From Natronomonas salinimetallica (GTDB lineage Archaea; Halobacteriota; Halobacteria; Halobacteriales; Haloarculaceae), in assembly GCF_013839515.1 (NCBI RefSeq), contig NZ_JACDNQ010000013.1, positions 34,506 through 91,686 on the forward strand: a stretch of DNA of 57,181 bases, read 5' to 3'. The position numbers were made by a program, and so were the translations under genes. Shown one piece after another: positions 54,570 through 57,181 of the stretch. The first letter of the stretch is position 1. The number at the start of each line of letters is the position of its first letter. The notes beneath the pieces are model-generated. The model was not told where the DNA came from. It worked only from the letters and a program-made list of their open reading frames with translations, and ran no database searches.

Positions 54570-56552
54570 CTACGACGATCCAGACCGGCGGTTCTTCGCC
54601 GATTCCGTTTTATGCCGGGATTTCTGGCCGCGTTCGACCCGCCCGGAGATATCCCGAAAGACCCCGTATGTGACGGGGCCATCGGGAAGTGAGATCGTGT
54701 TGACGCTGATTTCGAGCGGGACGGTTTTATTCTCGGCCGTCACCAGTTCAGGACGTGACCCATCCGGTAGCGTCTGAACCGTTGTCTGTTTCCCCGTGAC
54801 TCTATTGAATAAATCCCGGTACAGCTCCTCGTCCGCCGCCGGATGCAGTGTCGTCTGATGGCGGCCAACGATCCGGTCTCGGGACTCCCCCATTAGCGCT
54901 TCGGCGGCCTCATTCACCTCGATTATGTTTCCCGTCTCGGTATCCGCAACGAATACCGGGTCCGGTGCAGCCTCGAGTAACGTCTCGTACCGTCGTTTCA
55001 ACGCGGTCAGTTTCTCTTCACGCTCCTTGCGGTCGGTGACGTCCCGCAGTATCGAGAGGTGTTCACCGGGGACGATGTTCGGAGTCGCGGCGTACTCTAC
55101 GACTCGCTCGGATCCGTCCGGACGCACGAGTCGAACGGTCCCGCGTTCGCCATCCGAGGATCGGAGCTGTTGCCACATCGATTCGGTATCGAACCCGTCG
55201 GGCGAGAAGTCGGCGATCGACTGTCCGAGGAGTGCCTCCCGGGACACTCCGAACAGGTCGGCAGCGCTCTCGTTGGCCTCGACGTATCGTCCGCCGTCCT
55301 CGGTGATGACCATCGCGTCGCTCGCCTCTTCGAAGATCGCTCTGTACTTGTCACGCGACCGTGTGAGCTCCGTCAGTCGTTGCCGTACGTCGACAGCGGG
55401 CTTTCGGGGGATAGACACTCTCATCGTCGTCCCGTCTTCCGTGACCATCGGGTCGATGGAGCCGTCGTGGCTGGTTACGATCCAGTAGGCCAGCCACAGG
55501 CCTAACCCGGTGCCGTGCGCGAGCGGCGTCTCCTCCCCCCGGTTGAGGAGCTCGGCCTCGTGGTCAGGGAGGCCGGGGCCATCGTCGCTGATTTGAACCT
55601 CGACGGCGTTCGGGACGGCCTCGATAGCGACGGTGACGGTCGGGCTCTCACCGCTGTGTTTGACGGCGTTCTCGATGAGTTCCTCGACAGCCTGCTCGAA
55701 GTTCTCGAATATCCCTACGTATATTTCGGCGTCGTATTCGACGGAAATCGATGCTTCCGGATATTCTTTCGTGATCGTATCCACGACCCCCTCGATGAGG
55801 GATCCGATCTCCGTGTACTGTCTCTCGGAGTTCGTGGTGATAACCGCTTCAAGCTCGCGGGCCTTCCGGCTCAACTGAATGAGATCATCGATGTGGCCGA
55901 GGACAGCCTCGGCGGCGGGCTCATCGTCCAGCTGTTCGGCCATAAGCTCCGTGTACCCGCGGATGACGGAGATATCGTTTCGGATGTTGTGTCGAAGAAC
56001 CCGATTGAGGACCGTAGCGAGGGTGGTCTGAGTCGAGAGTTCGGTCTCGACGTGTGCCCGTTCGAGTTCACGTTCGAGCAGCCGCGTAAGGTGTTCTGCG
56101 AACCGCGTCTCGGCATCGCTGAACGGTTCCGACCGCGGTTCCTTGGCGACGAAACAGACCGTCCCGTAGGTGCCGTCGTCGACGACGAGCGGGACTCCGA
56201 GGTAGGTATGGAGCCCGTGGACTTCGAAGGCCGGATCGTCGGCCCACCCCTGGCCGGGTGCATCGTGGAGTACGACGGGGGTATCGTCCTCGATCGCCTC
56301 ACGGCAGTACGTTTCTCTGAGCTCTAGTTCCCGTTCCGGAGGGGTCCATCCGTCCGCCGTCTCGGTCGTGATCGCAGCCTCCCAGTAGTCGCTCTCCCCG
56401 TCGATTCGGGCGAGGTATCCGTCGTCCACTCCGAGACACTGTGTGCCGAGCTCCAATGCGGTACGCGCTTTTCGATCGAACGGGGTATTCTGCCGGAGGA
56501 CCTCATAGAGCCGTTGTCGGGCGTCTTCGATGGATGACACGGCCTCCGTCAT
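54570..56552 (-). CDS. GAF-kinase-PAS-PAS sensor histidine kinase with C-terminal sensors
   Basis: 660 residues. GAF domain at about 20-165 (VDDGYLARIDGESDYWEAAI, GVPLVVDDGTYGTVCFVAKE); HisKA-type H-box VLRHNIRNDISVIRGYTELM (His 188); HATPase with ELIENAVKHSGES (Asn 295), DDGPGLP (323) and HGTGLGLWLAYW (347). Two PAS domains follow the kinase, at about 403-505 (RAIFEEASDAMVITEDGGRY) and 521-640 (ETLLEAAPDPVFVADTETGN). Normally PAS domains precede the kinase; here they are C-terminal. Soluble, no membrane helix. No response regulator adjacent. Confidence 0.92.
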   Translation of the reverse strand: MTEAVSSIEDARQRLYEVLRQNTPFDRKARTALELGTQCLGVDDGYLARIDGESDYWEAAITTETADGWTPPERELELRETYCREAIEDDTPVVLHDAPGQGWADDPAFEVHGLHTYLGVPLVVDDGTYGTVCFVAKEPRSEPFSDAETRFAEHLTRLLERELERAHVETELSTQTTLATVLNRVLRHNIRNDISVIRGYTELMAEQLDDEPAAEAVLGHIDDLIQLSRKARELEAVITTNSERQYTEIGSLIEGVVDTITKEYPEASISVEYDAEIYVGIFENFEQAVEELIENAVKHSGESPTVTVAIEAVPNAVEVQISDDGPGLPDHEAELLNRGEETPLAHGTGLGLWLAYWIVTSHDGSIDPMVTEDGTTMRVSIPRKPAVDVRQRLTELTRSRDKYRAIFEEASDAMVITEDGGRYVEANESAADLFGVSREALLGQSIADFSPDGFDTESMWQQLRSSDGERGTVRLVRPDGSERVVEYAATPNIVPGEHLSILRDVTDRKEREEKLTALKRRYETLLEAAPDPVFVADTETGNIIEVNEAAEALMGESRDRIVGRHQTTLHPAADEELYRDLFNRVTGKQTTVQTLPDGSRPELVTAENKTVPLEISVNTISLPDGPVTYGVFRDISGRVERGQKSRHKTESAKNRRSGSS

Positions 56553-57181
56553 CTACCGAGCACCTACACGGACGAAAGGCGTTCGTCGGCACGATCGGTT
56601 GCCCTCATGCATATGTATTTCCCCCCTCCAAACCATGCCATTTAATACCACGCACCGATCGTAAATAAAATTTGTTCTTTCAGCATCTTTCGAGGCGGAG
56701 CCCCCGGCCTCAAGTCGTGAGGGATCAGTGATCCCTCTGACCGTCCGAACGGACCTGCGGTCCGTGAGGAGAGAGCGAGGGCTTCCGATTGGTCGGAAGC
56801 ACGAAGCGAGTAGGCCGGGGAGGAAGCCGACATGACGGGACAAAAATAATGCGGCTTCTGCCATCTGACTCGCTATCCCATACACTTTTTTCGGGGGCCG
56901 CCGTACCAATAATCAGTGATACCGCCGCACACGTCGCCGGTATCACGGGCCGCAGTAGCCCGGCCCCCGAATGGTGGGGATGCCGACCCCGAAGGTCGTT
57001 CGGTACGGGCGAGGAACGACCTTCCTCCCCGGCGACAACAGAGGGCGAGTCCCACATCAAAGCCACTGAAAGGCGAAGCCTTTCAAGGCCTTGGCAGAGC
57101 GTAATGAGTGACGGAAGTTATGGGCATGGAATGAGACTGGAAGGTAATGAGTGGAGATCGTCGGATCGAGATTGTCCGGCA
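56553..57181. other. 629-bp non-coding region rich in hairpins at the window end
   Basis: No protein-coding gene is supported. Perfect inverted repeats occur at 56720-56736 (agggatca-g-tgatccct), 56743-56764 (two alternative hairpins gtccg/cggac and cggacc/ggtccg), 56782-56799 (cttccga/tcggaag), 56891-56900 with 56961-56970 (tcgggggccg), enclosing 56916-56924 with 56938-56946 (gtgataccg), 56991-57001 with 57014-57024 (gaaggtcgttc) and 57068-57084. This may be a structured RNA gene or the end of a mobile element. The window stops here. Confidence 0.6.

Follow-up and report, generated by a model that had tools for sequence, protein, structure and literature searches.

A tnpB-less lineage of IS200/IS605-type elements in haloarchaea that carries an omegaRNA-like scaffold and may use TnpB in trans

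We analyzed a 57,181-nt stretch of DNA from the haloarchaeon Natronomonas salinimetallica (the window), which forms the right end of contig C5 in an assembly of 30 contigs. One of its ORFs (54570-56552, minus strand) is one that we take, by the look of its sequence, to encode a histidine kinase. To the right of this ORF, positions 56680-57103 (approximately 424 bp) are the left portion of an IS200/IS605-type element of the PATE kind without tnpB. The element starts with TCAGC as its relatives do, follows an unrelated upstream flank and has copies of approximately 90% identity in other genomes. Its parts, all on the plus strand like the other window features described below, are the left end (56680-56714), an optional double-hairpin insert (56715-56772) that appears as a gap in most of 17 aligned copies and is present in L034, L035 and L051, a left-end core in common with tnpB-bearing elements (56773-56832), a variable middle without tnpB (56833-56938), the 5' and central part of an omegaRNA-like scaffold (56939-57063), and the first part of a second optional double-hairpin insert (57064-57103), which is split at its central TA and is found intact, with GGCAGAGCGACGCTCTGCC, in L011, L012 and L017. 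The remainder of the window (57104-57181) belongs to an IS630-family insertion sequence, of which it forms one end; the transposase of this insertion sequence lies outside the window. TCA(G) is constant at the left end of the relatives, the flank upstream of TCA varies, and this motif is probably the target or TAM plus the start of the element, with only an approximate boundary between target and element.

An initial annotation of this DNA had described 56700-57090 as a hairpin-dense, non-coding stretch with no fewer than seven inverted repeats. Listing of inverted repeats confirmed the arms, including the nested ones (perfect 11-bp outer arms at 56890-56900/56961-56971, the 5' arm lying in the variable middle, around inner arms of 12 nt and 92% at 56916-56927/56935-56946) and a perfect 11-bp stem (56991-57001/57014-57024); further arms measure 9 bp (56719-56727/56729-56737), 8 bp (56781-56788/56793-56800) and 15 nt (80%; 57060-57074/57078-57092). 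The bounds had to be corrected on both sides, as the real unit starts at 56680 and its right end lies beyond the IS630-family insertion. The suggestion that this order exceeds chance was borne out by both shuffle counts and fold z-scores. Six perfect inverted repeats with arms of at least 8 bp and loops of up to 80 nt were counted in 56700-57090, compared to a mean of 0.44 in dinucleotide shuffles, and none of 300 shuffles reached six; with arms of at least 9 bp, the count was four against a shuffled mean of 0.13, and it was reached in only two of 292 window tiles. Folding of the two strands gave z = -5.5 (plus) and z = -4.2 (minus), and none of 100 shuffles was as stable as either fold.

The stretch is indeed non-coding insofar as its ORFs are not kept in relatives. 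A protein-coding reading of these short ORFs was discarded: little beyond the letters encoding NGG is shared with the TnpB C-terminus, and the upstream frame varies from copy to copy, so the region contains no conserved protein. A phage origin was also dropped, as the phage collection gave no match. The Rfam search did not place the hairpins in a known family; at gathering level, its only match in the whole window was a tRNA, and at E <= 10 the region 56400-57181 gave four matches, all far under their thresholds.

The IS630-family element was inserted at TA 57102-57103, in the loop of the optional hairpin, and the right end of the PATE was thereby cut off. The same IS630-family end recurs ahead of the transposases of L031 and L032 (that of L032 has DDE_3 and HTH domains) and also at eight other contig ends of the same genome, a repeat at which the assembly is interrupted. 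The genome has two further copies of the PATE, one on C26, which is split as well, and one on C16, which is intact, and contigs C8, C9 and C28 begin with the far side of IS630-split elements. Since C28 bears the IS end opposite to that of C8 and C9, the right partner of the window copy is C8 or C9; subtype makes C8 the likelier of the two, and synteny gave no support. Because the insertion severs the scaffold from the terminal hairpin and the guide, the window copy is probably inactive; a dead copy here does not require a dead lineage. At window 57102-57103 and at the starts of C26, C8, C9 and C28, an IS630-family element has hit one and the same TA, which lies in the loop of the palindrome GGCAGAGCGTACGCTCTGCC; these sites represent at least two and probably three copies of the PATE, and both orientations occur.

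BLAST searches identified relatives in 54 of 146 genomes of the family (query 56670-57102) and in 17 plasmid records (query 56650-57181). R1, a covariance model built from 14 tnpB-less copies only, had matches in 268 of 391 genomes of the class. Intact relatives start with TCAGC (with a few variants) and end with the terminal hairpin and GGGGTCGGTTAC, after which unrelated sequence follows; the flanks on both sides differ. The length without optional parts is approximately 380 bp, and those relatives with both ends found mostly measure 261-495 bp, too short for a transposase, and contain no TnpB. Genome G120 has eight dispersed copies with both ends found and with different flanks. An orthologous spacer without the element was found for one locus (L185 for L071) and is too diverged to give the target letters to the base. 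Two pairs of tnpB-less copies from different genomes (L162/L164 and L030/L135) have an identical right flank, and some insertions are therefore shared between species. The copy on pNRC200 of Halobacterium salinarum NRC-1 (L028 5001-6002) bears an ISH29 insertion in its middle and has an intact scaffold half, at 326,688-326,869 (complement) of the plasmid as computed from the locus position and the scaffold match, a place at which public RNA-seq could be consulted.

The element ends, left and right, are related to those of IS605-type transposons (L055, L059, L061, L058 and L012, the last from the genome of the window). L055, L059 and L061, which are approximately 1.5 kb long and encode TnpB, have the same left end, TCAGC start and scaffold architecture as the window lineage. 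Their matches cover query positions 104-163, 104-202 and 104-177, respectively, with tnpB lying further on in each; they end with TAGTTTAC, whereas the window lineage has no tnpB and ends with TCGGTTAC. The TnpB of L059 (418 aa) contains Cas12f1-like_TNB and OrfB_IS605 domains; its PDB matches are chains of TnpB and of Cas12f, with 8bf8 (TnpB) at 2.9e-4. A TnpB relative at E <= 1e-40 was detected in 35 of 36 searched genomes, all of them element carriers, a co-occurrence that proves little in a set of carriers alone. No such relative was found at this threshold in G290, which has a tnpB-less copy. TnpA (PF01797) has three matches in the genome of the window.

Separate minimum-energy folds of two tnpB-less right halves (L027 and L051) and of a tnpB 3' end (L059) resulted in the same architecture: a 6-bp hairpin with the loop CAGTAG(C/A)C, a long-range stem and a terminal hairpin. 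The first hairpin, H1 (56947-56966 in the window), has a 6-bp stem and an 8-nt loop, which reads CAGTAGCC in the tnpB-less form and CAGTAGAC in that with tnpB. The two forms differ in the letters of the stem, which is GGGCCG/CGGCCC in the tnpB-less one, the counterpart in the tnpB 3' end being ACGCAC-CAGTAGAC-GTGCGT. The long-range stem, P2, has its 5' strand at 56972-56981 (TGGTGGGGAT) and its 3' strand at 57049-57059 (GTCCC-A-CATCA), with compensatory changes at three pairs; its core TGGTG/CATCA is extended by GGGGC/GTCCC, GGTTT/AAACC or GGAC/GTCC. Between the two strands lies the internal 11-bp hairpin (56991-57024, GAAGGTCGTTC/GAACGACCTTC; GGGCGTC/GACGCCC in subtype B), which lacks a clean stem in some copies and is paired otherwise in the minimum-energy fold of L027. 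In intact relatives, P2 is followed by the terminal hairpin and then directly by the flank at the right end; the IS630-cut window copy has no terminal hairpin. R1 matches 56939-57121 of the window at 143 bits, with its final part forced onto the IS630 end, and its matches also include tnpB 3' ends, with scores of 67-91 bits (L040, L043, L055, L059 and L061; best 90.6). The outer 11-bp arm 56890-56900/56961-56971 overlaps the 3' strand of H1, and two mutually exclusive folds are therefore possible in this subtype.

Among the points on which the initial annotation had made its case depend, conservation in relatives and covariation are both present: the fold is kept across haloarchaeal families, and compensatory changes occur. 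The tested structure comprised 43 pairs, with the 11-bp stem left out. In a MAFFT alignment of the 14 tnpB-less copies (A1), 96.5% of the cells were paired, compared to 90.9% when shuffled and 40-45% for slid structures, and the covariation score was 0.202 versus 0.108 when shuffled; the number of double-change pairs (8 versus 6.4) was not exceptional. In a set of 38 tnpB-less copies of <97% similarity, taken from 47 without the right-end insert and aligned by MAFFT alone, 94.3% of the cells were paired (41-43% for slid versions), and 10 pairs showed compensatory changes. When 87 matches, tnpB copies included, were fitted to R1 (A2), all five measures exceeded all 500 shuffles, with counts that, like the tree described below, lean towards the R1 structure because the alignment was fitted to this tnpB-less model.

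We also compared G-U with A-C cells, which numbered 268 versus 44 in a first count and 162 versus 35 in the 38-copy set. A strong strand asymmetry was not upheld, as it comes mostly from constantly G-U pairs and is mild once the mostly-G-U pairs are removed (57 versus 35); thus, a plus-strand RNA as the selected form is not clearly indicated by the sequence. This weak asymmetry would suit hairpins that act solely as folded single-stranded DNA during TnpA-mediated excision and integration and have no role as RNA, and IS605-type elements do require end hairpins. However, TnpA recognition would be expected to require subterminal hairpins only, and the scaffold matches the tnpB 3' end, at which omegaRNAs of Halobacterium have been described (PMC12558985). 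We regard a purely DNA-level role as very improbable.

For the census, 85 of the 87 R1-fitted matches were used (the window copy and one partial match were dropped); they came from the class-wide R1 listing and from earlier loci and are not a random sample. In sixty rows, no TnpB was detectable upstream, and the right end is mostly TCGGTTAC; these rows represent 59 places, since L144 and L159 coincide. The upstream sequence available is only 169 bases for L153, in which a TnpB would be undetectable, and 425-917 bases for L120, L052 and L011. In 24 of the other 25 rows, TnpB ends 78-159 nt before a right end that is mostly TAGTT(T/G/C)AC, and L167 is without TnpB. A FastTree phylogeny of the 85 rows had a single split (support 0.983) between the full set of 60 tnpB-less rows and the full set of 24 tnpB-linked rows together with L167. 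The tnpB-less rows come from several families of the class, and one branch spread over several families implies that the loss of tnpB is old. Recent local decay of tnpB-bearing elements is therefore most likely not how the tnpB-less form arose.

This result bears on one alternative, a plain PATE, i.e., a decayed IS605-type element that is moved by TnpA via its end hairpins and has retained the omegaRNA-like part only passively, as a remnant of the tnpB 3' end. The PATE class was established in Haloquadratum in 2011 (PMC3119063), and precedents for leftover tnpB sequence are given in two reports: HqIRS71, a PATE with tnpB C-terminal sequence that its authors deemed non-coding (PMC3119063), and a PATE-like copy of 271 nt in Halanaerobium that consists of the ends only and includes the last 58 nt of tnpB (PMC7290912). 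Moreover, the window copy is broken, and so is the only close tnpB of its genome, since the sole TnpB relative at E <= 1e-40 is interrupted in frame by a TAA within a hairpin insert. Passive decay is nevertheless unlikely in our judgment: all 60 tnpB-less rows share one old branch across several families, and H1, P2 and the internal stems are still paired with compensatory changes more than 100 nt from the right end.

The best explanation, to which we give a probability of about 60%, is that the element represents an old lineage of non-autonomous IS200/IS605-type PATEs that have no tnpB, carry a complete TnpB guide-RNA scaffold by the right end and would use TnpB in trans. The observed features are the shared ends, the absence of tnpB, a scaffold architecture as at the tnpB 3' end, and the compensatory changes. 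As read from its letters, the stretch belongs to an old lineage that lost tnpB and kept a folded omegaRNA scaffold with compensatory changes. The surmise of the initial annotation, a structured RNA or a transposon end with guide-RNA-like folds, is supported, the element being an IS605-type transposon that is non-autonomous and shows the omegaRNA-scaffold fold in its right half. With such a scaffold, the element may borrow, for a trans-acting guide, TnpB made elsewhere in the cell. The same structural evidence would fit a decoy that binds TnpB without directing cuts and shields the element or the host, a role proposed for circular omegaRNAs in PMC12558985. Yet a decoy needs no exact guide boundary, and few parts of these elements are as constant as the terminal hairpin and the precise right end, by which the guide is set; we consider a decoy improbable.

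In the preferred trans-guide reading, the scaffold would be transcribed together with the host sequence just past the right end, and that flank would be the guide. TnpB from a related element would then bind the scaffold in trans and cut the element's own site wherever it is empty, with TCA(G) as the TAM and a guide match after it, repair after cutting would copy the element back, and TnpA would move the element, also in trans. TnpB is thought to aid the persistence of its own transposon by guided cuts at vacated sites. That these monophyletic, gene-less haloarchaeal transposons, each copy consisting of no more than its ends and a guide-RNA scaffold, depend on the TnpB of other elements and program it to cut their own vacated site, as a form of RNA-guided homing with both transposase and nuclease supplied in trans, is a bolder proposal that we advance tentatively, at slightly less than even odds. 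The lineage could also have been kept for TnpA recognition alone. If tnpB-less elements keep and use a guide-RNA scaffold, cheaters can exploit the TnpB system, a point of relevance both for the decay of tnpB copies and for how guide RNAs parted from the nuclease on the way towards CRISPR. The tnpB-less scaffold is also a natural test of the RNA features that TnpB needs, because, unlike the tnpB 3' end, it has diverged free of a coding constraint.

Guide-RNA loci without an adjoining nuclease gene are known from the stand-alone omegaRNAs of IscB systems, in which the nuclease gene is likewise not adjacent, but is IscB instead of TnpB. The omegaRNAs (sotRNAs) of haloarchaeal tnpB, including those of Halobacterium, are described in PMC12558985 (Rfam RF02656 and RF02657). 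Like the window lineage, they have the scaffold at the right end, running into the flank; they overlap the tnpB gene, whereas the window lineage is without tnpB. No match to RF02656 or RF02657 was found in the window or in intact relatives, and the tnpB-bearing element L055 scored 19 bits against the Rfam sotRNA families, for which the threshold is 88. The Haloquadratum PATEs, as far as the accessible text of PMC3119063 goes, resemble the window lineage in being short and IS605-related, with near-terminal palindromes and with neither terminal inverted repeats nor a transposase; the likeness is one of description, and a Haloquadratum family such as the 390-bp HqIRS46 may belong to the same lineage. 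That text describes no conserved guide-RNA scaffold in them, whereas the window lineage has a scaffold and forms a separate tnpB-less branch. In the largely open-access literature searched on tnpB-less guide RNAs and PATEs, the lineage was not found described as a carrier of guide RNAs, and no publication was found that joins PATEs with omegaRNA scaffolds.

The double-hairpin inserts have the same shape and largely unrelated stem letters, and they occur at fixed places in these elements: in the window at 56715-56772 and 57064-57103, in L012 at about 2385-2430, and in L035, L089 and L093. They are present even within the tnpB coding sequence; for the tnpB of Halanaerobium, PMC7290912 likewise reports hairpin inserts. 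These optional inserts could be small mobile repeats.
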